A DNA stretch of 64,000 nt, taken from the NCBI RefSeq assembly GCF_011927795.1, contig NZ_JAATJJ010000001.1, positions 2,667,062 to 2,731,061 of the forward strand, written 5' to 3'. Every line of letters begins with the position of its first letter. The first letter of the stretch is position 1. The notes below the pieces were generated by a model that was not told where the DNA came from, did no database searches, and saw only the letters and a program-made list of their open reading frames with translations. Origin of the DNA: Saonia flava. Lineage in GTDB: Bacteria; Bacteroidota; Bacteroidia; Flavobacteriales; Flavobacteriaceae. Below, piece after piece: positions 3,591-19,360 of this stretch. A program made the translations under genes and the position numbers.

Positions 3591-3899
3591 CTATTCCAAC
3601 AGTTTTAAAGCAGTTATACTGTTAATTGTAATTTCTTCATCAAATTCATCCAGTTCTTCTATCTCTATATAGGTGATAAGAAAAGATTTGCCTTTGTAGG
3701 TGTCTTGGGTTAAATCATAGGATGCCATTGCTTCATCAGATATACTGGAAAATTCATTGGCGTAGCCATCTTTGTCTGTAAAATAATAGATTCCTTCTTC
3801 AAAGCCATCAAACGTAGCTGTCATGGTTTCACTTTCCTGTGAAATTTTTATATTATTTATGGAAACCATTAAAAAAAGTGAAATAAAAAGTGTTTTCAT
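3591..3899 (-). CDS. Small secreted protein, unknown function
   Basis: 102 residues from the ATG at 3899, which begins a signal peptide (MKTLFISLFLMVSINN). An upstream in-frame ATG at 3932 would put polar residues in front of the signal, so it is less likely. The mature part is acidic and beta-strand-like: it has FDGFEEGIYYFTDKDG, two clusters of Glu/Asp, and a conserved-looking end ITALKLLE. I do not recognise the family. It converges on the Prc gene and is divergent from the dikinase-like gene across 440 bases. Probably periplasmic or surface exposed. Confidence 0.65.
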   Translation of the reverse strand: MKTLFISLFLMVSINNIKISQESETMTATFDGFEEGIYYFTDKDGYANEFSSISDEAMASYDLTQDTYKGKSFLITYIEIEELDEFDEEITINSITALKLLE

Positions 3900-4339
3900 G
3901 ATCAATATTTTATTTGTATTGTGAGTAGTCATCTCTTAAAATCATGATATTGCTTCAACACAATAACCTTAATTAAAAAAGACATTAATATGTTATCCGG
4001 AAGCTGACTTTATATTCGATTTTTCATCCTATGAAATGCTTTTGAAAATACCTTCCTGTTCATTCAAGAGCCCGAACCTATTAATGAATCTTATGAAGTC
4101 TAAATATTGTTTTTTAAGTTTTTTCAATACAAATGAAAACATTTTTTTAATATGAATTTTAATTATTTTACACATTTAAAGTATTGGTTGTTAGTCAGGT
4201 ATACTTATTTTGGCGAACTGGTGTATTTTGGAAATGCGTTAATTTTGATTTGGATGAATTTCTATTGGTTTTTTAATACTGAATCAAAATAGAAACTACC
4301 TTTGACCCTATAATTTTAAGAGACCATAATTACATTTAT
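3900..4339. other. 440-bp divergent intergenic region
   Basis: No open reading frame here looks real. It is strongly A/T rich and separates the small secreted protein (leftward) from the exported dikinase-like gene (rightward), so it should hold both promoters. Two exact TAnnTTTG -7 boxes for the rightward gene are seen, at 4240-4247 and 4297-4304. No convincing box was found for the leftward gene and no RNA structure stands out. Confidence 0.6.
4297..4304 (+). promoter_or_regulatory. Candidate Bacteroidota -7 box (TACCTTTG) for the dikinase-like operon
   Basis: Exact match to TAnnTTTG, 35 bases before the ATG at 4340, leaving a short leader. No TTG -33 element is found at the usual 17-23 base spacing, so the call is tentative. 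A second exact box (TAATTTTG) lies at 4240-4247. Confidence 0.35.
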
Positions 4340-7243
4340 ATGAATACTAAGTTGTTTATTCCTTTATTTTTTATAAGTTTCTTTTTGTCTTCACAAGAGA
4401 AAGTTGATAATGTTAAATTAAGGTCAGATGTATTATCGTATAAGAATGATATTAGAGGACCTTATAAAGATATTCGATGGTTTTGTACAGATGGCAGCGT
4501 TAGGGCTCCTAAAGACCCCTGTCCAGATAATATAGGTCCTGGTGTGCAGCATGCACGCTATAAGGACGAAGTGGTCAATACAGGAAATAAGTATGGTATT
4601 TACTTAGGGCAAATACTTACTTATACAGACTTAACGGAATTTTGGGATATTAAGAATGACCATTCCAGATTAAAACAATATCAATTGGATAAATATTTGC
4701 GTCAAGTAGATAATGGTTGGATTAATCAGAAGGGTCAGTATTATAGAGGGTCAATACAGGTAGAAGATGAGGAGCAATGGGGTGTCTATTTTTACAAATG
4801 GCTACTAGGAAATGATGATTATTTAATTCAAAATTACTTTTTAATTCGCCAATCCTTAAAGGATATCCCGCATAGCGGGGATGATAATGTTGCTCAATTA
4901 ATGCGAAGTCAATCCAAGGTTATATCTGACCTCTACCAACCCTTTATGGATTTAAGGGTTAAGATACATAGTCAACCACAGTTGGAGGATATTAAAAAGG
5001 TAAAAGATTTTAAACAAAAGAATAGCTCTAAACTTAATACTGATCTTAATAAAAAGTTGGACGAATTAATAGGCACAATGGACAAGTTCTTCGCTCCTTT
5101 TAATATTGTAGAGCTAGCCACAAAAGAAGATTTACTAAAAAACACATCTATAGGAGAGTCTATAAATTCATATGTAAACAGAAATAGTCAAAGTAATATG
5201 ACTCCTAATTTTATTGTTGAAACTTCACAATTGCTCTTGAATATAAGACAAGGAATCCTGAGCGAAAAACGACCTGAGGCCAGGCTATATTTGTTGGATA
5301 TTTCAATAAAATTAGAAGAACTGTTGTTTAAAAGTGTTCAAAATTGGGTGCCAAAAACCCTAGATGGACAATTAGAAAAAATATGTAGCCTTGCAACCGC
5401 TACTGTGGGTGCTGGATATATAGAACTTTGGGAGTGGGAGCAAATAAATAGTATTTTGAACCAAGCCAATCAAGATGAGCTTTCATTATCAGAATTAACT
5501 TCAATTTTGGAAACCGCAAGGGGGTCTGTGGAATGGAGTGTGGCCATGGTAAAGGCAAATTATCAAGACATTGTTGATATTTATACAGGTTTTGAACCCA
5601 AAGCTTATGGATTTATAGATGATCGTATAAGAGGCTCAATAGCACTGCACTTGGGAGAAAGTGTTGGAGAATTGGGGGATTTTATTTCCAGGGAGTCCGC
5701 TTTGACCAATAAGGTGTTGGATATCCCTAGTCAAAGTGCTTTCAGAGGTCTTAATCCTGGCTATGCTTTTGGGGAACTGGTTGTTGTTGAAGGTTCTTCA
5801 GAGGATATAGAAGTATCTTCGGATAAGATTTATATTTTTCAACGTTCACCTTCAGATTTAAAACCAGTAGCTGGCATCGCCACAGTGGCAGAAGGCAATA
5901 TGGTATCACACGTGCAACTATTGGCTAGAAATTTAGGAATACCCAATGCGGCACTTGCTGGAGAAAATTTGCAGAGCTTAAGAAGATACAATGGTAAAAA
6001 GGTATTTTATGCAGTTTCCAACAAAGGAAACGTAATTTTAAAGTTGGAAGCTCAAATGAATGAACAAGAACGCGGCCTGTTTTTAAAGAAGGAGCGTAGT
6101 ACTGACAAAATAGCTGTACCCATTGAAAAAATTCGTTTGAATGAAAAAAACATACTAAATCTTAGGAGTGTGGATGCTAATGATTCTGGACAACTATGTG
6201 GGCCCAAAGCTGCAAATTTAGGACAATTGAAGAAAATGTTCCCAGATAAAGTAGTGGAAGGGCTTGTTATTCCATTTGGGATTTTCCGTGACCATATGAA
6301 TCAAGAAATGCCTGGGCATGGGATTTCTTATTGGGCATTTTTGAACAAGATGTTTGCAGAGGCTGAAAATATGAAGGGTAAAAACATTGCAGAAGCGGAT
6401 GTAGAGAATTATCAATTGACTCAACTTGAAATCTTACGTGAGGCCATAAAAAAAATGCCTTTAAAAAGTGATTTCTTGTCCCATATGGATGAGGATTTCA
6501 AAAGCATTTTAGGAAAGCCAATGGGTCAGCTCCCTGTTTTCTTAAGAAGCGACACAAATATGGAAGATTTAAAAGATTTTACCGGCGCAGGATTAAACCT
6601 AACCCTTTTTAACGTTTTGGATAAGGAAAAAATTCTTAATGGTATAAAAGAAGTTTGGGCATCCCCTTATACAGAACGTAGTTTTAAATGGAGGCAAAAA
6701 TACTTAATGAACCCAGAGAATGTATTTCCATCTATTTTGGTAATTCCCAGTGTGGATGTTGATTATTCTGGTGTGCTCATTACAAAAGGCATCAATTCTG
6801 GAAATGATATGGACTTAACAGTTGCTTTTAGCAGGGGTGCCGGTGGGGCTGTAGATGGCCAATCAGCTGAAACATATACCATAAAAAATGAAATAGGTTA
6901 CCGTCTTTTGGCGCCTGCAAGGGAAAACCATTATAATAGCCTACCTATTACTGGAGGTACGGAAAAGAAAACTGCAACTTTTGAAATATCTGTTTTAAAT
7001 AATAAAAATATTGAAGAAATTAGGGAGTTGGCATCCAAGATTAGAACCATATTGCCAAAGGAAACAAAGTCCGATTATAAAGGTGCCTATGATGTGGAGC
7101 TTGGATTTAAGAATAATAAATTGTGGTTATTTCAAATACGTCCTTTTGTAGAAAACAAAAAGGCATTGAGCTCAGAATATTTGGAATCCATAACTCCCAA
7201 AATTGATTCAAAAAAAGAAATAAAACTTTCAACCATATTGTAA
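4340..7243 (+). CDS. Exported PEP/pyruvate-dikinase-like protein (phosphohistidine domain then ATP-grasp domain)
   Basis: 967 residues. An N-terminal signal peptide (residues 1-19, cleavage near LSSQ) is followed by about 450 residues I do not recognise. Next comes a swivelling phosphohistidine domain (about 470-570) with its candidate phosphate-accepting His524 in MVSHVQLLARNLGIP. The C-terminal ATP-grasp domain of the PPDK N-terminal type (about 615-945) shows GPKAANL (621-627), LRSDTNMEDL (735-744) and FQIRPF near the end. This order, His domain before ATP-grasp at the C-terminus, is that of alpha-glucan water dikinases; PPDK and PEP synthase have the reverse. The substrate is unknown. Its stop codon overlaps the start of the next gene (TAATG), so the two are coupled. 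An ATP-using dikinase outside the cytoplasm is odd, because ATP is not normally available there. Confidence 0.8.
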   Translation: MNTKLFIPLFFISFFLSSQEKVDNVKLRSDVLSYKNDIRGPYKDIRWFCTDGSVRAPKDPCPDNIGPGVQHARYKDEVVNTGNKYGIYLGQILTYTDLTEFWDIKNDHSRLKQYQLDKYLRQVDNGWINQKGQYYRGSIQVEDEEQWGVYFYKWLLGNDDYLIQNYFLIRQSLKDIPHSGDDNVAQLMRSQSKVISDLYQPFMDLRVKIHSQPQLEDIKKVKDFKQKNSSKLNTDLNKKLDELIGTMDKFFAPFNIVELATKEDLLKNTSIGESINSYVNRNSQSNMTPNFIVETSQLLLNIRQGILSEKRPEARLYLLDISIKLEELLFKSVQNWVPKTLDGQLEKICSLATATVGAGYIELWEWEQINSILNQANQDELSLSELTSILETARGSVEWSVAMVKANYQDIVDIYTGFEPKAYGFIDDRIRGSIALHLGESVGELGDFISRESALTNKVLDIPSQSAFRGLNPGYAFGELVVVEGSSEDIEVSSDKIYIFQRSPSDLKPVAGIATVAEGNMVSHVQLLARNLGIPNAALAGENLQSLRRYNGKKVFYAVSNKGNVILKLEAQMNEQERGLFLKKERSTDKIAVPIEKIRLNEKNILNLRSVDANDSGQLCGPKAANLGQLKKMFPDKVVEGLVIPFGIFRDHMNQEMPGHGISYWAFLNKMFAEAENMKGKNIAEADVENYQLTQLEILREAIKKMPLKSDFLSHMDEDFKSILGKPMGQLPVFLRSDTNMEDLKDFTGAGLNLTLFNVLDKEKILNGIKEVWASPYTERSFKWRQKYLMNPENVFPSILVIPSVDVDYSGVLITKGINSGNDMDLTVAFSRGAGGAVDGQSAETYTIKNEIGYRLLAPARENHYNSLPITGGTEKKTATFEISVLNNKNIEEIRELASKIRTILPKETKSDYKGAYDVELGFKNNKLWLFQIRPFVENKKALSSEYLESITPKIDSKKEIKLSTIL

Positions 7244-8502
7244 TGAAAAAAATAATCATTTCTGGTATCATTTTAATTTTCTGTTCTGCATTTTCTGCTA
7301 TAATAGAATATCCGATTGATGGTTATGAACGTACCGGGATAAAAAGGTTAAAACGTTTAGAGCGTATAAAAAATGGTGAAATAAAGGACGCTTCCCCATT
7401 GCCTATTGGCGCTATGAAGTCCTACAGTGATATTACACTCAACCTTCTTTCCAAAAGAGATGATAGTGTCATGGCCTTGATGGAAATAGACGAAGATTTC
7501 CAAAAAGAAATAAATGCTTTGTTTAGGGGGTTAGATAGGAGTTATTCCATTACAGTATTGGATATTTCGGATGTGGATAATATTCGTTTTGCTAAGCGAA
7601 ATGAAACGGCAGGATACCAACCTGGAAGTGTTGGTAAATTGGTGGTTTTAAATGCTCTGTTTACCCAGTTGGCTAAAATCTATCCTAATTCCTGGGAGCA
7701 ACGAACGGAACTGTTAAAGAACAAATCTGTTAAAGCTGGAGTTTGGGGGTTAACAGATGAGCATACTATTCCAATTTATAATATAGAAAAGAACACCTTG
7801 GTCAAGAGACAGGTTATAGCCAGTGATGAATTTACTTTATATGAATGGGCAGATCACATGCTAAGTGTAAGTAATAATGGTGCAGCAAGTATAGTTTGGC
7901 GGGAGGCCATGTTAATGGCAGCTTTTGGAAATGAGTATCCAGGACTCAGCCAAGAGGAAGCAGATATATATTTTAAGGAAACCCCAAGAAAGGATTTAAC
8001 GGATTTGAGCAATGATGTGGTAAACCTTCCTTTGCGGGATTTGGGTATTACAACAGATGAATGGCGTTTGGGCAGTTTTTTTACAAGAGGTGCCAATAAC
8101 TATGTGGGTGATAAGGGGGGAAGTATTGGTACCCCAGCTGGTTTAATGAAATTTTTGATACAATTGGAACAGGGAAAAGTTGTAGATGAGCAGTCCAGTT
8201 TAGAAATGAAAAGATTAATGTATATGACAGATAGGAGAATTAGATATGCCCAAGCTCCGGCATTGAAAGAGGCTGCAGTATATTTTAAATCTGGAAGCTT
8301 GTATAAGTGCGATAGAAGTAAAGGGGAGGCCTGTGGAAAATATATGGGTAATGTAACCAACTTTATGAATTCAGTTGCAATTGTGGAGCATCCAGATAAT
8401 TGTAGGTATATGGTTGTTTTAATGACCAATGTTCTAAGGAAAAACTCTGCTAGTGATCATATGTATTTGGCTGGAAATATAGATAAATTGATTAGGAAAT
8501 AG
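7243..8502 (+). CDS. Exported serine hydrolase, class A beta-lactamase/DD-peptidase fold
   Basis: 419 residues with an N-terminal hydrophobic signal (MKKIIISGIILIFCSAFSA). All three motifs of the penicillin-recognising fold are present in order: SVGK (Ser129, Lys132), SNN (210-212) and KSG (349-351). It is longer than a typical class A beta-lactamase (about 290 residues) because of an N-terminal extension and an insertion between the SxxK and SNN motifs. Two Cys (356, 364) sit just after the KSG motif and could form a disulfide. The start overlaps the stop of the dikinase-like gene by one base. A peptidase or esterase acting on wall peptides is as likely as a beta-lactamase. It is convergent with a second hydrolase of the same fold. 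Confidence 0.82.
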   Translation: MKKIIISGIILIFCSAFSAIIEYPIDGYERTGIKRLKRLERIKNGEIKDASPLPIGAMKSYSDITLNLLSKRDDSVMALMEIDEDFQKEINALFRGLDRSYSITVLDISDVDNIRFAKRNETAGYQPGSVGKLVVLNALFTQLAKIYPNSWEQRTELLKNKSVKAGVWGLTDEHTIPIYNIEKNTLVKRQVIASDEFTLYEWADHMLSVSNNGAASIVWREAMLMAAFGNEYPGLSQEEADIYFKETPRKDLTDLSNDVVNLPLRDLGITTDEWRLGSFFTRGANNYVGDKGGSIGTPAGLMKFLIQLEQGKVVDEQSSLEMKRLMYMTDRRIRYAQAPALKEAAVYFKSGSLYKCDRSKGEACGKYMGNVTNFMNSVAIVEHPDNCRYMVVLMTNVLRKNSASDHMYLAGNIDKLIRK

Positions 8503-8579: not shown

Positions 8580-9515
8580 TTATTTAGGAATATTTAAGGT
8601 TGCAACTATTTTGTTTCCTTGCTTCTTTAGTACTTTCTCAATTGGATTAACTAAATTTCTTATTATTTGCTCACCATTAGGGTCATCTATCAAGGCAACT
8701 AGAATATATCTTCTATTTGGATTTTTTCCCCAAACCAAAATAGAATCCGAATGATAGGTCTTCCAAGAACCAGATTTTCTAAATAATCGGGCATTGGGTG
8801 CAATTTTGTCCAAAGTATTTACAAACTTATGATGAAGCTCTGGGTTTTCCATAATGTCCAGCATTTGTTTGGATCGTTTTTCATTTACCAAACTTCCATT
8901 GGCCAACAAGTAGTAATATCTGCATACCTGGGTTACAGTTGCAGCATGACTCAAATTTTTCAATGGCTCCCTATTAGTGTCACCACCACCACCATAGCGC
9001 TTGCCTACCCATAGTCCCCCACCTTTTTCCTTATCATAAAATTCATATTTTGGGTCAGTCATAACAGCCTCTATTTTTTCATATCCTACCCTATCAATCA
9101 TTCGTGTAGAAGCTTCATTATTGGATTTGCTTATCATTAAACGCATATCTTTTTTTACATCAGGGGCTTCTATCAATTCTCCTTTTTCAATTGCATCCAT
9201 GGCGGCCAAAAGAATGGCAATTTTAGGTAAGCTGGCAGCATACATCATGTGGTTGCCATTTACTCTTGCAAAACGAACTTTTTCAGGGTTGCTTAAATCA
9301 ACAATGCCAATAGCCATTTTCTTTTCTGCTATAAGCTTGCTCCATTCGGAATGAGACATTAGTTCTTCTTCTAAACTACTTTGTAACGAATTGTCCAATA
9401 ATGTAGGCAATGGTCTTATTTTGGAACTGGTTACTTGTAAAGGCAATTCACTTTGGGCAATTAATCCAGTGGTTATTGTTAGTAAAAAAAGCAGTGTAAA
9501 AATGTTATATTTCAT
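8580..9515 (-). CDS. Exported serine hydrolase, class A beta-lactamase-like
   Basis: 311 residues with a signal peptide ending GLIAQ. Catalytic motifs of the beta-lactamase fold are complete: SLPK (Ser95, Lys98), SNN (131-133) and KSG (247-249). The size is close to class A enzymes, but there is no clear Glu166-type ExxLN omega loop. Deacylation as in true class A beta-lactamases is therefore doubtful, and a peptidase or transpeptidase-like role is possible. A glycine-rich loop (KRYGGGGDTN, near 172-181) lies between the second and third motifs. It converges on the other hydrolase with 77 bases between stops and is divergent from the PLP/DgcN/DgcA-like operon. The two hydrolases share the same motif set and probably a common origin. 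Confidence 0.82.
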   Translation of the reverse strand: MKYNIFTLLFLLTITTGLIAQSELPLQVTSSKIRPLPTLLDNSLQSSLEEELMSHSEWSKLIAEKKMAIGIVDLSNPEKVRFARVNGNHMMYAASLPKIAILLAAMDAIEKGELIEAPDVKKDMRLMISKSNNEASTRMIDRVGYEKIEAVMTDPKYEFYDKEKGGGLWVGKRYGGGGDTNREPLKNLSHAATVTQVCRYYYLLANGSLVNEKRSKQMLDIMENPELHHKFVNTLDKIAPNARLFRKSGSWKTYHSDSILVWGKNPNRRYILVALIDDPNGEQIIRNLVNPIEKVLKKQGNKIVATLNIPK

Positions 9516-9759
9516 ATGTTGTTACAATTACTCCAAAATGTAGTCAAAAGTATTGAATCTGAGGAATGGTTGTTTGTTAAATTTTTGATTGAACAGCTTG
9601 ACGATTAGTCCAATCAAATATAGGTTTTCCATAAAGTAGGCTAAAAATAATTGTTAAAATTTGCACTTTAAGAATCATAATAATACTAATTATGTACTAC
9701 CTTTTATGTAGGGTATTTTTTTAGCTTTTAAATGAATATTGAAAATAAAAACTGTGCAA

Positions 9760-10821
9760 ATGAACCTTAAAGATGGAGTGAGAACAGCCGAAAACAAGGT
9801 TTCTTCTGAAACTTTAAGGCTTAGTGCTTTTGTTCAGGATTTTGGTAACTCTTTGGTCGATAGGTTAGAATCCTATGAGGATATTATAAATCTTGAAATT
9901 GGTGATACAGGACTTAGCCGTGCAAAGACCATGGAAAGGGAGTTCGATATTCGTCAACTATATGTTAAATATGAAGGGGATAACCCAACGGGAACCCAAA
10001 AAGACCGCATTGCATTTGCCCAATTATATGATGCATTAAGAAGGGAATACAAGGTAGTTTCATTGGCTACTTGTGGTAATTATGGCGTAGCTGTTGCGCT
10101 TGCCGCTCAATTAGCCGGTATTACATGTAAAATATATATACCAGAGTCTTACAAGACGGATAGAATAGGCGAAATGATTTTACTAAACGCCGAAATTATT
10201 AGGTTGCCGGGAAGTTATGAGGATGTGGTAAAAAAAAGTAGCGAAATAGCATTGGATAAAGGGTGGTATGATGCAAATCCAGGTGGTACCAATACGCCAA
10301 TACAAATTTCTGCCTACTCGCAAATAGCATTTGAGATTTTTGAAGATTTGGGAGATGCTCCTAAATATTGTGCTGTTCCCGTTTCCAATGGTACTCTTAT
10401 TGCAGGTATTTTTAGGGGGTTTGTTAACTTGTATAAAAGAGGTAAAACTTCTAGAATACCAAAAATGATAGCTGCTTCATCCACACATAAAAACCCTATT
10501 ATTGAATCATTTATTCAAAATCTTGATTATTGTAGAGATTTAGATCCACAAAAAATTAGGGAAACTAAATACAATGAACCTTTGATCAATTGGCATAGCT
10601 TTGATGGCAACGAAGCGCTCTATGCCTTACGTGAATCTGGTGGTGAAGCATTTAATATAAGTGATGCTAAACTAAAACAAATGACAACGCTGTTGTTGAA
10701 GAAGGAGGGATATCGAATTTTGCCTGCAGCGACAGCTGGTCTTATAGCACTATTAGAATTGGATAAAGAGTTAAACTTTGAACCGGACCGCTTCATAGCA
10801 ATATTAACTGCTAAAAATTAA
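9760..10821 (+). CDS. PLP-dependent fold type II enzyme, threonine synthase-like
   Basis: 353 residues from the ATG at 9760; the frame stays open upstream to a TTG at 9739, but that adds no family sequence. The PLP Schiff-base lysine is in NPTGTQKDR (Lys88 when numbered from the TTG, Lys81 from the ATG). The TCGNYGVAVALAA segment that follows resembles the phosphate-binding loop region of threonine synthase and cysteate synthase. The N-terminal zinc-ribbon or helical domain of classical threonine synthases is missing. It is seven bases upstream of the DUF1611 gene and clearly in the same operon, so it probably acts on an amino acid or amino-acid derivative handled by the DgcN/epimerase-like pair. 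The exact reaction (elimination, beta-replacement, racemisation) cannot be read from the sequence. Confidence 0.85.
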   Translation: MNLKDGVRTAENKVSSETLRLSAFVQDFGNSLVDRLESYEDIINLEIGDTGLSRAKTMEREFDIRQLYVKYEGDNPTGTQKDRIAFAQLYDALRREYKVVSLATCGNYGVAVALAAQLAGITCKIYIPESYKTDRIGEMILLNAEIIRLPGSYEDVVKKSSEIALDKGWYDANPGGTNTPIQISAYSQIAFEIFEDLGDAPKYCAVPVSNGTLIAGIFRGFVNLYKRGKTSRIPKMIAASSTHKNPIIESFIQNLDYCRDLDPQKIRETKYNEPLINWHSFDGNEALYALRESGGEAFNISDAKLKQMTTLLLKKEGYRILPAATAGLIALLELDKELNFEPDRFIAILTAKN

Positions 10822-10828
10822 AAGAAAA

Positions 10829-11902
10829 ATGAGAAAAAGTATTGATGGTAGTGCCCTAGTGTACTCTGAAGGAGCATTTAATACGCCAAATGGTAAAACT
10901 GCACATGGCCTTGTAAGGTTTACGGAACGATATAATATATTGGGAGTATTGGATAGTGCATATGATGGTATGGATGCAGGGAGTGTTTTGGATGGAAAAC
11001 ATAATGGGATTCCAATTTTTGGTAATATTGATGATGCCTTAAAGGAACTTAAAGCTGTAGGCAAAAGTCCAAAATTTTTGGTCATGGGACTTGCGCCAGA
11101 TGGTGGGCGATTGCCTGATAATGCCAAAGGAGCTATTACAAAGGCCTTGGAAGTGGGGTTGAATATTGATAGTGGACTTCATGATTTTATATCCAACGAT
11201 GAAAACATAATGGCGATTGCCATAAAAAATAATTGTCAAATTCGGGATGTACGTAAAACCCCAGATAGGGATAAGCTTCATTTTTTCACGGGAGATATTG
11301 AAAAAGTGGATTGTCTTAAGTTGGCCGTACTGGGCACAGATTCAGCTTTAGGAAAAAGAACTACTGCTTGGATATTAACACATGCATTTAGAAAGGCAGG
11401 AAAGAAGGCAGAAATGATTGGAACAGGCCAAACAGCTTGGATGCAAGGAGCCAAATACTCCATGGTAATGGATAGTTGTATAAATGATTTTGTTTCTGGT
11501 GAAATTGAACATGCGGTTGTAAGTGCATGGAAAAACGAGAAACCAGATGTTATAATAATAGAAGGGCAGGGTAGTTTAATGAATCCGGCTTATCCTGGTG
11601 GTTTTGAGATTTTGGCAGCTGGAAGGCCAGATTTTGTTATTTTGCAACATGCCCCAAGCAGATTGGAGTATGATGGATTTCCAGGGTATAAAATGCATTC
11701 CTTATCTAAACAGATTAATGCCATAGAGGTGATTTCAGGAAAAAAAGTTATAGCAGTAACGGTTAATCATGAATCAATGAATGAAAATGAAATTATTCCC
11801 GCTTGCGACGCTATTACAAAAGAAACGGGACTGCCTGCCTTTGATGTTTTAAAGTTTGGTGCAGAGGAACTTATTAATTTATTGAAGGCAGAACTAAAAT
11901 GA
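10829..11902 (+). CDS. DUF1611 family protein, D-glutamate N-acetyltransferase (DgcN)-like
   Basis: 357 residues. An N-terminal Rossmann-like part (about 1-150) contains VMGLAPDGGRLP. The C-terminal P-loop domain has the Walker-A-like motif GTDSALGKRTT (169-179), then GTGQTAWMQG and IIEGQGSLMNPAYPGG. These are hallmarks of DUF1611. Members in marine proteobacteria have been assigned as DgcN, which N-acetylates D-glutamate before an enolase-superfamily enzyme (DgcA) racemises it (from memory of the literature). The gene's 3' end overlaps the start of exactly such an enzyme by four bases (ATGA), which supports a shared pathway. Here the substrate could instead be a D-Glu-containing peptide or another acidic D-amino acid. 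Cytoplasmic, with no signal peptide. Confidence 0.82.
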   Translation: MRKSIDGSALVYSEGAFNTPNGKTAHGLVRFTERYNILGVLDSAYDGMDAGSVLDGKHNGIPIFGNIDDALKELKAVGKSPKFLVMGLAPDGGRLPDNAKGAITKALEVGLNIDSGLHDFISNDENIMAIAIKNNCQIRDVRKTPDRDKLHFFTGDIEKVDCLKLAVLGTDSALGKRTTAWILTHAFRKAGKKAEMIGTGQTAWMQGAKYSMVMDSCINDFVSGEIEHAVVSAWKNEKPDVIIIEGQGSLMNPAYPGGFEILAAGRPDFVILQHAPSRLEYDGFPGYKMHSLSKQINAIEVISGKKVIAVTVNHESMNENEIIPACDAITKETGLPAFDVLKFGAEELINLLKAELK

Positions 11903-12957
11903 AGATAACCCATATATCCTATGAACGATTAGATTTAAAGTTATCTTCTCCCTATACCATAGCCTATGAAACTATATCTAAAACTACCAATTTTATACTG
12001 AAAATAGAAACAGAAGGAAAACTTGTGGGGTATGGATGTGCGGCACCTGACAAAATCGTAACAGGTGAAACCCCAGATGAACTTGAAATAGCAATCAACA
12101 CTATAATTACTGATTATCTAAAAGGTAAGGATGCTTCTTTCTATGCTCATATTTTGTGGGAATTAAAAGAGTTGTTGGGCAAAAAATCATCCGCTTTGGC
12201 TATGGTAGACATTGCTTTGCATGACCTATTTGCAAAAAAAGCAAAAGTTCAATTGTATAAGTTTTTAGGTGGCTATAGGAGTAGTATAGCTACAAGTATT
12301 ACTGTTGGTATTTTACCCTTAAAAGAAACTTTGGAACTGGCTCAAAACTATGTATCCAAAGGATTTTCCATTCTTAAAATTAAAGGTGGTTCCCATCTTG
12401 GAGAGGATATAGAAAAAATGATAAAATTACGGGAGAAACACCCAAATATTACTTTTAGGTTTGATGGTAACCAAGGGTATTCCGTGGTAGATTCAATTGC
12501 CTTTGTAAAGGCCACAAGTAGTGTTGGTATTGAGATATTTGAACAGCCAACAAAATTAGAAGTAGAAGAACGTTTAGGTAAGGTTACCGAGCAAGTTTCA
12601 ATTCCAGTTATGGCAGATGAAAGCTTAAAAACGTTGGGTGATGCCTTTCGTTTGGCACAGAATGAAAGGGTGGACATGGTAAATATAAAGCTTATGAAAG
12701 TAGGTGGGATAATGGCGGGTATGCATATTAATTCTGTTGCAAAATCTGCTAATATAGATGCAATGGTAGGTTGTATTGATGAGTGTGGATTGGGTATTGC
12801 CGCAGGCCTTCATTTTGCATTGTCAAGACCAAATATTTTATATGCGGACTTAGATGGACATTTGGACATCATAGATGATCCTTATCACAAAATGTTTAAA
12901 TTGGAAAATGGTATAATGTATCCAAATGATACTTTTGGTTTGGGCATGTTTGTTTAA
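11899..12957 (+). CDS. Enolase-superfamily dipeptide epimerase / DgcA-like racemase
   Basis: 352 residues, muconate-lactonising subgroup. Catalytic residues are visible in order: LKIKGG (Lys160, Lys162), metal ligands Asp189 (RFDGN), Glu215 (FEQP) and Asp240 (MADES), and the second-face lysine Lys264 in NIKLMKVGG. This is the pattern of L-Ala-D/L-Glu epimerase, which recycles murein peptides, and also of DgcA, which racemises N-acetyl-D-glutamate. It overlaps the DUF1611 gene by four bases, so translation is coupled. With DUF1611 next door the DgcA role is attractive, but most flavobacterial relatives are annotated as dipeptide epimerases; sequence alone does not settle which. Cytoplasmic. 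Confidence 0.88.
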   Translation: MKITHISYERLDLKLSSPYTIAYETISKTTNFILKIETEGKLVGYGCAAPDKIVTGETPDELEIAINTIITDYLKGKDASFYAHILWELKELLGKKSSALAMVDIALHDLFAKKAKVQLYKFLGGYRSSIATSITVGILPLKETLELAQNYVSKGFSILKIKGGSHLGEDIEKMIKLREKHPNITFRFDGNQGYSVVDSIAFVKATSSVGIEIFEQPTKLEVEERLGKVTEQVSIPVMADESLKTLGDAFRLAQNERVDMVNIKLMKVGGIMAGMHINSVAKSANIDAMVGCIDECGLGIAAGLHFALSRPNILYADLDGHLDIIDDPYHKMFKLENGIMYPNDTFGLGMFV

Positions 12958-13023: not shown

Positions 13024-13830
13024 ATGAAATTTACAAATAGGACGGTATACACCTTATTAATTGCTTTGTGCCTTATTGGCTTTTGGGTGTTTGAGAATTT
13101 TTACACCCCAGATTTATATTCAGCGCCAGATGGAGAGGCTTCAAAGACAGAAATGAACGAAATGTTTTTGCCAAGTTCAACAACTGGAGCAATAGTTCAC
13201 CATGATCATTTCTCTCTTTCTTATCATGAAAAATATGAGCAAGCAGAATGGGTTGCTTATGTGCTCAGAAAAAACCACCTAACATATGATGATCGGGAGA
13301 GGCCCTATTTTATTGAAGACCCAAAGGTGAAAACAAAATCAGCAGATTGGCGCAATTATAAAAGGTCTGGATATGACCGTGGACATTTATGTCCAGCGGG
13401 TGATAGACGGTTTTCCGAATATGCCTATAATGAAACATTTTATACTAGCAATATTAGCCCACAAGACAGGGACTTTAATGCAGGAGTATGGAATAGATTA
13501 GAGATGCAAGTACGGCAGTGGGCCAAAAAATATGGGGATATACAGGTTGTAACCGGTGGTATTTTAGAGAAAGGGTTGTGGACTATTGGAGAAGAGGATG
13601 TCGCAATTCCCAAATATTATTATAAAATTGTTAGCAGAGGGAATGTAAAAAACCCAAAAGTATTGGCATTTTTAATTCCGCATGAAGAAAGTACAAGCTC
13701 ATTGAAAAATTTTGTTGTTACTGTTGATGAATTGGAAAGAATGACCAAAATTGATTTTTTTGAAAAAATGCCGGATGCCTTGGAGAGTAAATTTGAAGCC
13801 GGGAAAAAAACCAATAACTGGAAATTTTAA
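13024..13830 (+). CDS. Exported DNA/RNA non-specific endonuclease
   Basis: 268 residues from the ATG at 13024, which begins a membrane-spanning or signal segment (TVYTLLIALCLIGFWVF). An upstream ATG at 12988 would add 12 residues before the signal and is less likely. The beta-beta-alpha metal nuclease motif DRGHLCPAGDRR is present, with the general-base His121. The downstream Asn-containing NISPQ and the WNRLE segment supply the metal ligand of NUC1/Serratia-type nucleases. It probably degrades extracellular or periplasmic nucleic acid for nutrient recovery. It lies 66 bases after the epimerase gene and converges on rodA, sharing the TTAA at 13827-13830 as both stop codons. Confidence 0.9.
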   Translation: MKFTNRTVYTLLIALCLIGFWVFENFYTPDLYSAPDGEASKTEMNEMFLPSSTTGAIVHHDHFSLSYHEKYEQAEWVAYVLRKNHLTYDDRERPYFIEDPKVKTKSADWRNYKRSGYDRGHLCPAGDRRFSEYAYNETFYTSNISPQDRDFNAGVWNRLEMQVRQWAKKYGDIQVVTGGILEKGLWTIGEEDVAIPKYYYKIVSRGNVKNPKVLAFLIPHEESTSSLKNFVVTVDELERMTKIDFFEKMPDALESKFEAGKKTNNWKF

Positions 13831-15110
13831 TGCCATTCATTTAATCTATTTGTATCCAGTTTTAAGAGTACAAAAAGTAATATTGAAAAGCCCAGCATGC
13901 TAGATCCCCCGTAGCTAAAAAAAGGAAGGGGAATTCCAATAGTTGGAAGGATGCCGATCACCATCCCAATATTTATGAAATAATGGAAAAGTAGTATTGA
14001 GATAACACCATACCCATACATTCGATTAAAAGCTGATTTCTGCCGTTCCGCTATATGAACTAGGCGTAATAATAACAATGTAAAAAGAATAATTACTGTA
14101 GCCGTTCCCACAAAGCCCCATTCCTCTCCCACGGTGCTAAAAATATAATCCGAATGCTGTTCCGGGACAAAATCCCCCTTTGTACGCGTTCCTTCCAGAA
14201 AACCCTTTCCAAAGAAACCTCCAGATTCGATTGCCTTTTCCGATTGATAGGTGTTGTAGCCAATGGATTTTCTAATTTCTTCCAATTTGTCAGGGTCTTT
14301 TTCCAAGCGAAGCCACAAACCAAATCGGTCTCTATGGCGCTGTTCAAAAACATTGTTAAACACAAAATTCACAGAAAGTGAGAATATTATGGTAGCAAGA
14401 AAAAATAAGACCACTGGAAATATTGGGACTTTAAAAGTTGCTTTCTTAAAAAAGAAGAAAAGAATAATGATAAGGGCCAATCCAATCCCGACCCATATAG
14501 TACCATACATCAAAGTCGTTACAAAAATGAGAATCAAAACGAGTCCAATCCCCAGATAAAATAGGGGGACTCCCTCTCTGAAAAGCACAAATATTAAAGC
14601 AAGAAATACCAAAGCACTTCCGGGATCTGGCTGTGGAATAATTAATAGGGCAGGGATAAAAATAATTAGGAATGCATAAAGTTGGTGCTTGCCTCTTTTA
14701 ATATCTGTTTGTATATCACTAAGGTATTTTGCCAAAGCCAAAGCCGTTGCCACCTTGGCAAGTTCTGAAGGCTGAAAATTAAAAAAACCTAAATTATACC
14801 AAGATGTGGCACCTGCCACGGTTTTTCCAAAAACAAAAAGACCTAAAAGAGATGCTATTGCGATAATGTAAAGTAGGCCAGAAAAACGTTCGAAAAAATT
14901 GGTTTCAAGAGCGAGAATCACAATTATCACCAAAAAACTAAGTCCAATGAAAAACAATTGCTTGCCATACAGTTCGCTGAAGTCAAGTATAGATAAGCTG
15001 TCTTCTGAAAATGTACTGGAATAAATATTTAGCCAACCTATGCTTGTTAATAAGAGATAAAGTAAAATGGTGAACCAGTCTATTCTTTTAAGGACACTTT
15101 TACCAAACAT
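13827..15110 (-). CDS. rodA: Rod shape-determining SEDS peptidoglycan glycosyltransferase RodA
   Basis: 427 residues, about ten membrane segments, SEDS family. It polymerises glycan strands from lipid II for lateral wall growth together with PBP2. Family features seen include the W-Y-N-L-G-F segment followed by FQPSELAKVATALALAKYL, and the PTIGIPLPFFSYGGSSM stretch near the C-terminus. The large loop (about residues 240-320) between membrane segments contains the conserved FGKGFLEGTRT sequence. The start overlaps the end of the PBP2 gene by 11 bases, and it is the last gene of the mreB-mreC-mreD-mrdA-rodA operon. Its stop is shared in opposite orientation with the nuclease gene. Confidence 0.97.
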   Translation of the reverse strand: MFGKSVLKRIDWFTILLYLLLTSIGWLNIYSSTFSEDSLSILDFSELYGKQLFFIGLSFLVIIVILALETNFFERFSGLLYIIAIASLLGLFVFGKTVAGATSWYNLGFFNFQPSELAKVATALALAKYLSDIQTDIKRGKHQLYAFLIIFIPALLIIPQPDPGSALVFLALIFVLFREGVPLFYLGIGLVLILIFVTTLMYGTIWVGIGLALIIILFFFFKKATFKVPIFPVVLFFLATIIFSLSVNFVFNNVFEQRHRDRFGLWLRLEKDPDKLEEIRKSIGYNTYQSEKAIESGGFFGKGFLEGTRTKGDFVPEQHSDYIFSTVGEEWGFVGTATVIILFTLLLLRLVHIAERQKSAFNRMYGYGVISILLFHYFINIGMVIGILPTIGIPLPFFSYGGSSMLGFSILLFVLLKLDTNRLNEWH

Positions 15111-16968
15111 ACTCGTTTATCTTAAACGGTTGCCCACTATAAGGTTTGGCGTATTCATGCTCCAAAGTCTTTTCTAACATTCTCTGCTCCAAATCTTTTC
15201 TTGTAATCTCTCCTTTCAAATATTTTTCTATTAATAGAGAGGCAATATGCCCTGCATATCTGGAGCCAAAATATCCATTTTCTATATATACTGCTATAGC
15301 TATTTTTGGATTGTCTACTGGGGCAAAAGCAACAAATACGGAATGATCGGTGAGTTGTGTCCTTACACTATCAATTTTTGTAAAATTTTCAACTGTACCT
15401 GTTTTTCCTGCAATATCTATTCCATCTATACGAAGCCTATTGGCCGTTCCATGTTTGTACACATTGGCCATGCCTTCAATGATAGGTTCAAAATGTTCCT
15501 TGTCTATGGTAGTATACTTACGTTGAGTAAAATTTGGAATGTCTATATCGTCGTCTCCAATTTTTTTGATTACATGTGGAGTGTAATAATATCCCCTATT
15601 GGCTATAGCCGCAGTCATATTAGCCAATTGGATAGGTGTTGCAGCAACCTCACCTTGCCCAATGGAATTAGAAATTATAAAGGATGAGGACCAGCGGCCA
15701 TCACCATAAACATTATCATAATATTTTTTGCTGGGGATTCTACCAGGGGCACCTGTATAAATATCGGACCCTAAATAACCACCCAGTCCAAAACTTTTCA
15801 TGTGCTTTTCCCAAACATCCATGCCCTCATCTGTTGTGGGGTATTTATCATAGATTCTTCTAAAGGTGTGTGCAAAGTATGCATTGCAAGACTTATATAT
15901 TCCTGAATTCATATCTCGTAGACCACCACCACAGTGGCAACCTCTTTTAATATTACCCACATAAAAGCCATTATAGCACCTAACTTTGGTGTCAGAGGTC
16001 ATAACACCTTCCTGTAGGGCAACAAGTGCATTAAGGGTTTTAAATGGAGAGCCAGGAGAAGGCTGCGCCAAGATAGAACGGTCCCATGTAGGTTTTGCAA
16101 TGGAATCATAATACAATTTTGTATAATTTTTGGAGCGTTCCCTGCCTACCAAAAGGGAGGGGTTGTATGTAGGTCCAGAAATCATGGCCAGTATTTCCCC
16201 GGACTCTGGCTCAATGGCAACAATTCCTCCACGCTTGCCATGCATTAGTTTTTCCCCATATTCCTGTAATACCTTATCCAAGGTAATTCGGATATCTTTT
16301 CCTTGTTTGGGAAGTGTATCCAATGTTCCTTCCTTATAAGGCCCTATATCCCTATTAAAGCGATCTTTCTGTATTAATTGAACTCCTTTTTTGCCCCTTA
16401 AAATGCTTTCGTATTGTTTTTCAATACCAGTTCTTCCCGTAAGTTCACCCGCTATGTAATACGTGTTTTTTGCCAAGTCACTATCGTTTACCTCACTAAT
16501 ATATCCTAAAACGTTGGCGGCACTGTGTGTTACATAATCCCTTAAGGATCTCTTTTGAATATAGAAACCTTCATATTTTCTCATTTTCTCTTGAAGCCCT
16601 GCATAATCTTCTTTCGACAATTGAGGGACCAAAACAGAAGGCAATCTGGGAGAATATACTTTCGCTTTCTTTAATTTTAAAATAAATTGTTCTTTGTTAA
16701 TTCCCAGTAGACTGCAAAACTCCATAGTGTCCAGTGGTTCTACCTCCCTTGGTATAACCATTACATCATATGCAGGTTGGTTGGCGACCATAAGTTCCCC
16801 ATTGCGGTCATAAATATACCCGCGTTCTGGATAGTCGTATATCGCTTTTACAGCAGTATCTTCAAGAATTTGATTAGGGGAAAAACTAAATACCTGTAAA
16901 TATGATAGTCTACCAATAAAGGTAATCCCAATAATGATGATAATGGAGGATAATAAAAACTTCTTCAT
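15100..16968 (-). CDS. mrdA: Penicillin-binding protein 2 (elongasome transpeptidase)
   Basis: 622 residues: an N-terminal membrane anchor (about 5-25), a non-catalytic PBP dimerisation domain, then a transpeptidase domain. Active-site motifs are SPFK (Ser307, Lys310), SCN (360-362) and KTGT (from Lys522). It cross-links peptidoglycan during cell elongation as the partner of RodA. Three Cys (331, 344, 346) cluster between the SxxK and SxN motifs with a neighbouring His, in the region where E. coli PBP2 has been reported to bind a metal, so a zinc site is possible (inferred). The ATG overlaps the mreD stop by one base. Confidence 0.97.
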   Translation of the reverse strand: MKKFLLSSIIIIIGITFIGRLSYLQVFSFSPNQILEDTAVKAIYDYPERGYIYDRNGELMVANQPAYDVMVIPREVEPLDTMEFCSLLGINKEQFILKLKKAKVYSPRLPSVLVPQLSKEDYAGLQEKMRKYEGFYIQKRSLRDYVTHSAANVLGYISEVNDSDLAKNTYYIAGELTGRTGIEKQYESILRGKKGVQLIQKDRFNRDIGPYKEGTLDTLPKQGKDIRITLDKVLQEYGEKLMHGKRGGIVAIEPESGEILAMISGPTYNPSLLVGRERSKNYTKLYYDSIAKPTWDRSILAQPSPGSPFKTLNALVALQEGVMTSDTKVRCYNGFYVGNIKRGCHCGGGLRDMNSGIYKSCNAYFAHTFRRIYDKYPTTDEGMDVWEKHMKSFGLGGYLGSDIYTGAPGRIPSKKYYDNVYGDGRWSSSFIISNSIGQGEVAATPIQLANMTAAIANRGYYYTPHVIKKIGDDDIDIPNFTQRKYTTIDKEHFEPIIEGMANVYKHGTANRLRIDGIDIAGKTGTVENFTKIDSVRTQLTDHSVFVAFAPVDNPKIAIAVYIENGYFGSRYAGHIASLLIEKYLKGEITRKDLEQRMLEKTLEHEYAKPYSGQPFKINEYVW

Positions 16969-17474
16969 TATTTTTCAACTTTAAAAAGCAGACTTAAGAG
17001 AATACACATTAAAAATGTACCGCAAAAAGTAACTATTATTTTCTTTAAAATTAATAAAGCATTTGAAAAGCTTAAAATTTCCAATGAAAAGAAAACAATA
17101 TGGTGTATTATAATCAATAACGCTAAAAAGGTAATTTGTTGTGCCTTTGTTGCGCTACTTATTCTAAAGCTTTGGAACTCGTAGTTGACCCCAAAAACAA
17201 ATCTCATTAGGGAGGGTCTTAAAAAAGCAATAGTAACTGTAGCTGCTGTGTGCAGTGCTAGGGTGTCTGAAAATATATCCACAAACAACCCTAAAAGAAA
17301 AGCAATAACAATAAAAGCCCCTTTGTTCTCCTTAATGGGATACCAATACAAGAATAAAATATAAACAAATGGATTTATATAACCCAAAAAATTTAATTTA
17401 TTGAATACTAATACCTGAACCAAAACAAGTAAGACAAACCTAAGGATGTTTATAAAGTAAAAATTACTGAACAT
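16968..17474 (-). CDS. mreD: Rod shape-determining membrane protein MreD
   Basis: 168 residues and very hydrophobic, with about five membrane segments, in the standard place between mreC and the PBP2 gene. MreD is a poorly conserved integral membrane partner of MreC that helps position the wall-elongation complex. The assignment rests on size, hydrophobic profile, the LFVDIFSDTLALHTAA segment and strict gene order. It overlaps mreC by 11 bases and the PBP2 gene by one, so expression is tightly coupled. Confidence 0.9.
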   Translation of the reverse strand: MFSNFYFINILRFVLLVLVQVLVFNKLNFLGYINPFVYILFLYWYPIKENKGAFIVIAFLLGLFVDIFSDTLALHTAATVTIAFLRPSLMRFVFGVNYEFQSFRISSATKAQQITFLALLIIIHHIVFFSLEILSFSNALLILKKIIVTFCGTFLMCILLSLLFKVEK

Positions 17475-18282
17475 TTTCTAGTTTAGACTCCAATTCTAGG
17501 ATTTCAGCCCTATTGGTATTGATTATAATATATGCGTTTTTTAGGTTGGCCATGTCATTGAACAGTTGAACATCAATATTATATAAAGTTTTTGATGCAT
17601 TTAGGTCGTATTTTCTAATGGTCCCAATGGGGATATTTTCCGGAAAAATACTGGACATTGCTCCCGTGACTATGGTATCCCCAACATGCAATGGTACAAG
17701 GCGGGGAATGTCTATTAATTGTACCACATCATATCTTTCTGTGTTCCATACTAAAGAACCAAAATAATCAGTATTCTTTATTTTGGCATTTATGTTGGAT
17801 TTGGTATTGAGAATACTTTGCACTTTTCCATATTTGGATGAAGTATAATCTACAATTCCAATAATTCCGTTACTTGTGATAACGCCCATGTCTTGTTTAA
17901 TAGAATCATTTCTCCCTTTATCAATGGTTAAGTAATTTCTTGGGCTGGCATAACTGTTCTTAATAATTTTGGCAGAAGTTAGGGTGTAGTTGATATTAGA
18001 GGTGTCCATTTTAAAGAGGCTCTCACCTTTTTTATTATACAATAAACCTCTTAGCCTTCTATTTTCTTCTACTAGTTTTTTGTTCTGTTCTCCCAAATCA
18101 AAATATGAAGAAACACTACTGGATATATTATAGACTCCTCCAGAAATTCGATTGGCGGAGTTAAAAAATTTGGATTTGTGAAAAGAATGGGATTGTATTG
18201 TGAATCCTAGCGCAATGGACATCAAAAAGATATAAAGTAAAGTAATTTTATATCTAATTATAAAATTGATAATCTGCTGCAT
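17464..18282 (-). CDS. mreC: Rod shape-determining protein MreC
   Basis: 272 residues: short cytoplasmic start, one membrane helix (about 10-30), a coiled-coil region (about 60-85, NKKLVEENRRLRGLL) and a C-terminal double beta-barrel. The conserved stretches DKGRNDSIKQDMGVI and GIIGIVDYTSSKYGKVQSIL are typical. In the periplasm it activates PBP2 and links it to cytoplasmic MreB. It starts 49 bases after the mreB stop and overlaps mreD. Confidence 0.95.
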   Translation of the reverse strand: MQQIINFIIRYKITLLYIFLMSIALGFTIQSHSFHKSKFFNSANRISGGVYNISSSVSSYFDLGEQNKKLVEENRRLRGLLYNKKGESLFKMDTSNINYTLTSAKIIKNSYASPRNYLTIDKGRNDSIKQDMGVITSNGIIGIVDYTSSKYGKVQSILNTKSNINAKIKNTDYFGSLVWNTERYDVVQLIDIPRLVPLHVGDTIVTGAMSSIFPENIPIGTIRKYDLNASKTLYNIDVQLFNDMANLKNAYIIINTNRAEILELESKLENVQ

Positions 18283-18331
18283 TCACTTTTTGTTTTAGCA
18301 AACCCATTAAAAAAGCCTAAAAAAGAAGCTT

Positions 18332-19360
18332 TTATTTTATTAGGATACTCTTGTAACGTTCTAGATTTTTTAGCGCAATACCTGTGCCTCTTACAACAGC
18401 TCTTAGTGGGTCTTCGGCAATATATACAGGTAAATCGGTTTTTTGTGATAATCTTCTATCCAATCCTCTTAACATAGAACCACCACCGGCCAAATAAATA
18501 CCGGTATTATAGATATCGGCAGCTAATTCCGGAGGAGTTTGTGATAAGGTTTCCATTACTGCATCTTCTACTCGTAGAATGGATTTGTCCAGTGCTTTTG
18601 CAATTTCTCTATAGGAAATAGACACTTGCTTAGGTTTACCTGTTAACAAATCCCTTCCCTGGACGGACATTTCCTCTGGCGGGGACTGCAAATCTTCTGT
18701 TGCGGAACCAATTTGAATTTTGATGTTTTCGGCTGTGCTCTCACCAACATACAGATTGTGTTGCGTTCTCATGTAATAAATAATGTCGTTTGTGAAAACA
18801 TCACCTGCAATCTTTACAGATTTGTCACAAACAATTCCTCCCAAGGCAATTACAGCAATTTCAGTAGTACCACCTCCTATATCCACAATCATGTTTCCTT
18901 TGGGCTGCATAATATCCAACCCGATACCTATGGCGGCTGCCATGGGCTCATGAATTAGATAAACTTCCTTTCCATTTACACGTTCGGCAGATTCTTTTAC
19001 CGCGCGCATTTCTACTTCCGTAATTCCAGAGGGAATACATATGACCATTCTTAATGCAGGTGGAAACCATTTTTTCTTTAGAGCAGGAATATTTTTGATG
19101 AACATGTTGATCATCTTTTCCGAAGCATCGAAATCTGCAATTACTCCATCTTTTAAAGGTCTAATCGTTTTAATATTCTCATGGGTCTTACCTTGCATCA
19201 TGTTGGCTTCCCTGCCAACGGCAATAATTTTTCCCGTTATTCGATCTCTCGCTACTATGGATGGGCTATCTACTACTACTTTATCCAGATGAATAATAAG
19301 AGTGTTGGCGGTACCTAAATCAATAGCTATCTCCTCGGTCAAGAAATCAAAAAATCCCAT
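18332..19360 (-). CDS. mreB: Rod shape-determining actin homologue MreB
   Basis: 342 residues, the usual MreB length. Phosphate-binding loops are visible: IDLGTANTL near the start, IVDIGGGTTEIAV in the middle and YLAGGGSMLRGL near the end. The EPMAAAIGIG segment is diagnostic. It forms membrane-associated filaments that guide the RodA/PBP2 machinery. First gene of the five-gene shape operon; a TAATTTTG box overlapping the end of purH probably supplies a promoter. Confidence 0.98.
   Translation of the reverse strand: MGFFDFLTEEIAIDLGTANTLIIHLDKVVVDSPSIVARDRITGKIIAVGREANMMQGKTHENIKTIRPLKDGVIADFDASEKMINMFIKNIPALKKKWFPPALRMVICIPSGITEVEMRAVKESAERVNGKEVYLIHEPMAAAIGIGLDIMQPKGNMIVDIGGGTTEIAVIALGGIVCDKSVKIAGDVFTNDIIYYMRTQHNLYVGESTAENIKIQIGSATEDLQSPPEEMSVQGRDLLTGKPKQVSISYREIAKALDKSILRVEDAVMETLSQTPPELAADIYNTGIYLAGGGSMLRGLDRRLSQKTDLPVYIAEDPLRAVVRGTGIALKNLERYKSILIK

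Follow-up and report, generated by a model that had tools for sequence, protein, structure and literature searches.

The 64,000-nucleotide stretch of Saonia flava DNA analysed here (NZ_JAATJJ010000001.1, positions 2,667,062 to 2,731,061; hereafter the window) carries a gene pair encoding a dikinase-like phosphotransferase (the dikinase) and a serine hydrolase of the class A beta-lactamase fold (BLA1), with a second such hydrolase (BLA2) close behind them (Table 1). The two genes of the pair are coupled, their open reading frames (ORFs) sharing a single base at the junction TAATG, as described in an earlier note made from the sequence alone. Their neighbourhood is conserved far beyond chance: BLA1 follows the dikinase gene in 36 of 37 homologous Bacteroidota loci in a first set and lies downstream of it in 80/81 loci of a second set, which includes the window and partly overlaps the first. 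The exceptions were a genome in which BLA1 is unlinked, 240 kb away (G323), and a truncated contig (L118). The gap between the two genes is mostly −4 to +6 bases. In Maribacter caenipelagi, a small lipoprotein-like gene (L042:12891-13481) sits between them.

Table 1. Genes of the module and domains of the dikinase. Positions are those of the window unless a contig is given.
Feature	Position	Strand	Remarks
Dikinase-like phosphotransferase	4340..7243	+	967 aa; predicted exported; signal peptide about 1-18 (LSS/QEK)
N-terminal helical domain of dikinase	4409..5719	+	residues 24-460 (about 24-455 in the domain division)
Phosphohistidine domain of dikinase			residues about 470-570; His524
ATP-grasp domain of dikinase			residues about 605-945
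BLA1, class A beta-lactamase-fold serine hydrolase	7243..8502	+	419 aa; predicted exported
BLA2, second beta-lactamase-fold serine hydrolase	8580..9515	-	311 aa; predicted exported
NTT-HEAT of the window's genome	C1:627319-630078		outside the window, 2 Mb from the dikinase

The dikinase has the Lys, Arg, DxE, QxR and catalytic His of the PPDK-type superfamily. The Pfam domain PPDK_N spanned residues 619-945 (E 7.3e-24). Ahead of it, at residues 507-542, lay a weak, sub-threshold PEP-utilizers (phosphohistidine) match, with E 8e-4 when this region was searched alone. His524, K623, R736, D918, E920, Q932 and R934 showed no variation across 35 homologs with identities down to 40%. The ATP-contacting residues, equated with those of PPDK and PEP synthase by family knowledge and HMMER alignments, are thus intact in 35/35 sequences, and the phosphohistidine domain stands before the ATP-grasp domain as the earlier note had read it. 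In HMMER, the ATP-grasp and His residues aligned to solved PEP synthase and rifampin phosphotransferase (Rph). In an AlphaFold2 model of the whole protein (predicted local distance difference test (pLDDT) 83.6, predicted TM-score (pTM) 0.77), the ATP-grasp domain resembled PDB structures of Rph and PEP synthase (lowest E 4.6e-13, TM-score by target 0.84). These enzymes are its best relatives in both sequence and structure, Rph being the closest by structure.

The N-terminal domain was said in the earlier note to match nothing familiar, and it remained without relatives: Pfam gave nothing above threshold, a sequence search of the PDB was empty, and Foldseek with a separate model of the domain (pLDDT 85.7) returned no PDB fold with E <0.001. 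It nevertheless carries a conserved motif, RGPYxxIxWFCxDG...CP, and Cys49/Cys61 are present in 34/34 sequences. This domain probably binds the acceptor or a partner protein.

Comparison with characterised enzymes narrowed the possible identity of the dikinase. Its phosphohistidine domain precedes a C-terminal PPDK-type ATP-grasp domain as in the plant alpha-glucan water dikinase (GWD) and PWD, with the catalytic His and ATP residues present; unlike these enzymes, it is a predicted exported bacterial protein with an unrelated 430-aa helical domain at its N-terminus. Pfam searches of the whole protein (E up to 1) and of the N-terminal domain (E up to 10) matched no CBM45, CBM20 or other starch-binding domain, and GWD1_pHisD (PF22973) reached only E 0.056 and 13.5 bits (cut-off 27), weaker than the generic PEP-utilizers model. 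The likeness to glucan dikinases drawn in the earlier note therefore survives as domain order, while glucan as the acceptor was dropped because there is no carbohydrate-binding domain and the domain order had been its sole support. A PEP synthase identity was also rejected: PEP synthase has ATP-grasp first, then the His domain and then a PEP-binding TIM barrel, whereas the dikinase has the reverse order and a helical domain in place of the barrel, and it scored 74.6 bits against an NCBIfam equivalog cut-off of 739.75. With PEP synthase, Rph, HpeI and PigC, the group nearest to its ATP-grasp domain in sequence and fold, it shares the DxE...QxRP and RSxxxxED motifs, but those proteins are cytoplasmic and differently ordered, so that the dikinase is permuted relative to them. 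Rph has a helical substrate domain as well; in Foldseek the N-terminal domain does not match it. The dikinase belongs to the PPDK-type phosphotransferase superfamily, has a GWD-like domain order and most likely works by a mechanism like that of GWD, PEP synthase or Rph.

Both hydrolases fall in PF13354 and, like class A beta-lactamases and PBP-type hydrolases, have invariant SxxK, SxN and KSG motifs; in BLA1 these are S129xxK132, S210xN212 and K349SG351. Unlike class A beta-lactamases, BLA1 has an invariant YPIDGY at its mature N-terminus. It also has a paired Cys356/Cys364. No NCBIfam beta-lactamase model reached its cut-off with the hydrolases (bla_class_A scored 16.3 against 200, with SxxK/SxN/KTG-type motifs present), and a profile search found no solved relative of BLA1.

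Export was judged from family-wide N-terminal patterns in homologs with a readable N-terminus. In 79/79 dikinase homologs a short hydrophobic segment precedes [AGSN]/Q, and 78 of them passed the hydrophobicity threshold. Cleavage before Gln at such a site is the 'Q-rule', the signal peptidase I (SPI) pattern of Bacteroidetes (PMC5837995). The same type of signal peptide was found in 68/68 BLA2 sequences, and all 78 readable BLA1 N-termini were hydrophobic, with the segment ending just ahead of the conserved YPIDGY. Past its signal peptide, the dikinase contains no membrane segment. The cysteine pairs of the dikinase (49/61) and of BLA1 (356/364, kept in 33/34 sequences) would fit disulfides formed in an oxidising compartment. 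By this family evidence the dikinase N-terminus is a signal peptide, as proposed in the earlier note, of the Sec/SPI type, and export of the protein is predicted.

A third and a fourth gene emerged when the ORFs of 80 loci, each taken with up to 10 kb of flanking sequence, were all clustered. In 67/81 loci the convergent neighbour behind BLA1, on the opposite strand, encodes a protein of ~940 aa combining a TLC ATP/ADP transporter domain (PF03219) with C-terminal HEAT repeats (NTT-HEAT), with BLA2 behind it, directly upstream of the NTT-HEAT gene; the complete order, dikinase and BLA1 facing NTT-HEAT and BLA2, was found in 63/81. PF03219 scores reached 45.6 bits at the loci and 48.3 bits in the copy of the window's genome (cut-off 21), and a single member (L064) gave no match when searched alone. 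The proteins have about 12-13 transmembrane-like segments, and a profile of the membrane part matched the solved ADP,ATP carriers 9j3n (bacterial, E 1e-19) and 9j3j (chloroplast, E 3e-18). NTT-HEAT fusions of this size and composition are widespread in free-living bacteria, and as of 2017 no member had been characterised (Major et al. 2017, PMC5381601). Unlike the fusions described there, the present transporter is associated with two hydrolases and an ATP-grasp enzyme that is predicted to be exported.

The four genes were also inherited together. Four separate searches of 151 Flavobacteriaceae genomes, one each for the dikinase, BLA1, NTT-HEAT and BLA2, picked out an identical set of 27 genomes, the only additional matches being a weak, short NTT in one genome (G017) and a BLA2 in a 260-contig assembly (G148). 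Co-occurrence of dikinase and NTT gave a Fisher p of 2e-30 for these 151 genomes, which are not phylogenetically independent. Linkage alone does not explain this pattern, since the NTT is retained where it is unlinked: a full-length NTT was present elsewhere in 13/13 tested genomes with none at the locus, the window's genome keeps one, and in G146 a BLA2-NTT pair lies on another contig. The dikinase is retained while its NTT partner switches between two subfamilies of ~42% identity: at two loci (L053 and L054) the dikinases are 83% identical and the NTTs 44% identical. In the lineage of the window, an unlinked type-B transporter has apparently taken the place of a resident type-A one. Every genome in which the dikinase was found has a relative of ATP transporters, and nearly all of them have both hydrolases. 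Across a phylum-wide sample, 13/13 dikinase genomes have some NTT, and the two most distant (G327, G343) have distant NTTs. No fifth conserved gene was found among the 81 loci. A GNAT/nitrilase-fold gene (cluster 38) occurs in only 6/81; examples at the module are L055:12909-14444, between dikinase and BLA1, and L109:12967-14493, and a homolog (L176:11602-13125) is found near the unlinked NTT of the genome that holds the window.

By textbook account the periplasm contains no ATP, and the earlier note had remarked that an ATP-dependent phosphotransferase outside the cytoplasm would need an unusual phosphate source. The strictly co-occurring NTT-HEAT, which the note had missed together with the second hydrolase, now offers a genomic candidate. 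We propose, with a probability of roughly 0.55, that the pair is part of an extracytoplasmic module of four genes in which NTT-HEAT supplies periplasmic nucleotide and the exported dikinase phosphorylates an acceptor. NTT-HEAT in the inner membrane would carry adenine nucleotide into the periplasm, where the C-terminal ATP-grasp domain of the dikinase, as its invariant residues suggest, would bind ATP and phosphorylate His524 on a swivelling middle domain. In the PPDK-type superfamily, this His takes the beta phosphate of ATP, leaving AMP and Pi. The His domain would then swing to hand its phosphate to an acceptor on the N-terminal helical domain, with AMP and Pi released as in PEP synthase, GWD and Rph. 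BLA1 and BLA2, as serine acyl-enzymes, might cut or join the same molecule or a linked one. A peptide or glycopeptide of the envelope is their most likely substrate, being the most natural one for beta-lactamase-fold enzymes, and our guess is that the acceptor, too, is probably envelope-derived.

Several observations weigh against this proposal. The dikinase would release AMP, while classical carriers exchange ATP for ADP, so that the model needs an extra step. K155, E245 and K527 of AtNTT1 proved critical for nucleotide binding or exchange in binding and transport studies (PMC3306366). When these were mapped onto the NTT-HEAT alignment through an offset of 84, all three aligned with non-charged residues, so that neither nucleotide transport by NTT-HEAT nor its direction is assured. 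At E385 of AtNTT1, a fourth position of importance, NTT-HEAT keeps an acidic residue, Asp (D253); judged by its family, nucleotide transport is likely, though not certain. The co-occurrence itself partly reflects shared inheritance of a gene cluster in genomes that are not independent. The sole NTT of G327 is short and distant, and nine Bacteroidota genomes have a distant NTT-HEAT without such a dikinase, which shows that these transporters are not exclusive to dikinase genomes. A search for a diverged dikinase in genomes with distant NTT-HEAT found none; three weak matches span only part of the ATP-grasp domain.

Among other explanations, the same module might work inwards, with NTT-HEAT importing the phosphorylated product or the released nucleotide and ATP coming from lysed cells or the environment, as scavenging or group-translocation-like uptake. 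The module occurs mainly in marine genera, which have large secreted degradomes, the exchange-critical residues are altered in NTT-HEAT, and characterised bacterial and plastid NTTs have mostly been studied as importers (PMC5381601). Yet a dikinase fed by environmental ATP would starve most of the time, and there is no sequence sign of import; we consider this reading unlikely. Less likely again is a periplasmic module that modifies antibiotics or toxins, with the dikinase as a permuted, exported cousin of Rph and both hydrolases degrading drugs. The structural closeness of the ATP-grasp domain to Rph fits this idea, as do the Rph order of ATP-grasp, helical and His domains, of which the helical, His and ATP-grasp order seen here is a circular permutation, and the membership of both hydrolases in PF13354. 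It is difficult to reconcile with scores far under the cut-off of every resistance model, with the strict conservation and co-inheritance of the module, and with a helical domain that has no match to the substrate domain of Rph.

A dikinase that runs backwards or draws on a different phosphoryl donor, for instance making ATP outside from a phosphorylated envelope compound for import by the NTT, appears slightly more doubtful still. PPDK itself is reversible and the periplasm is normally ATP-poor, but the AMP- and Pi-releasing reactions of the GWD, PEP synthase and Rph type are nearly irreversible in the cell, and no periplasmic donor is known. We give very little weight to the reading that the dikinase is not exported, being anchored in the inner membrane or cytoplasmic with its neighbours merely as operon-mates. 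The hydrophobic segment of the window's own protein is modest (maximum 19-residue Kyte-Doolittle 1.09), but the uniform cleavage pattern in its homologs, the mature part free of membrane segments, the retained Cys49/Cys61 and the export signals of its partners BLA1 and BLA2 all speak for export.

An ATP-dependent phosphotransferase in the periplasm would be odd on its own, and the co-kept NTT-family gene makes ATP-fed extracytoplasmic chemistry a concrete and testable idea. We know of no bacterial counterpart of a system that joins an exported dikinase and a pair of exported serine hydrolases to a protein of the nucleotide transporter family, and a literature search that did not reach subscription papers found no paper on the gene combination. 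We therefore regard the module as new when taken as a system, while every part belongs to a known superfamily. PADLOC gave no match except generic HEAT, and an anti-phage defence role was set aside. Tentatively, and at somewhat less than even odds, free-living Bacteroidota may deliberately export ATP via NTT-HEAT to power a phosphotransferase that is dedicated to modifying an envelope molecule outside the cytoplasm. If true, this would break the rule that no ATP-driven chemistry takes place in the bacterial periplasm, and the orphan NTT-HEAT family would gain a first function. It would also resolve a question left open in 2017 (PMC5381601), namely what free-living bacteria do with proteins related to ATP/ADP translocases, which are known otherwise from plastids and from parasites living inside cells. 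Culturable hosts carrying the module include Maribacter, Formosa, Cellulophaga and Winogradskyella.

The wider NTT-HEAT family has other neighbours. In several of the nine dikinase-free genomes the NTT lies near exported metallophosphoesterases or lipoproteins, and in G343, which has a dikinase, near a PhoD-like phosphatase; these neighbours suggest that the family may, speculatively, serve several extracytoplasmic phosphate enzymes. At four loci (L178, L179, L181, L185), distant NTT-HEAT genes of other Bacteroidota accompany unassigned ~570-aa lipoproteins (CGSSRPYT...FDPD), a second unassigned exported protein and metallophosphoesterases that are likewise exported. These genes may form a further extracytoplasmic system linked to NTTs. 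A second, HEAT-less NTT of ~450 aa lies near the NTT-HEAT gene in several genomes (e.g. L181:7883-9241, L177:15881-17239).

Around the module in the window, a small exported-looking protein (113-aa ORF, 3591-3932, minus strand), for which Pfam gave no match, is encoded divergently from the dikinase and has relatives nearby in 15/81 loci. Directly behind the module, a threonine-synthase-like pyridoxal phosphate (PLP) enzyme, a DUF1611/DgcN-like protein and an L-Ala-D/L-Glu-type epimerase are encoded in tandem (9739-12957, plus strand). The same set, with two extra genes, follows the module in Maribacter polysaccharolyticus (L053). It could be a catabolic operon for D-Glu or murein peptides; since the epimerase and DgcN-like neighbours occur in only about 5/81 loci, they are a mere hint at the substrate. 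Shortly downstream of the module, RodA, PBP2 and, judged from position and order, mre-type shape genes were identified by eye only (13827-19360, minus strand).

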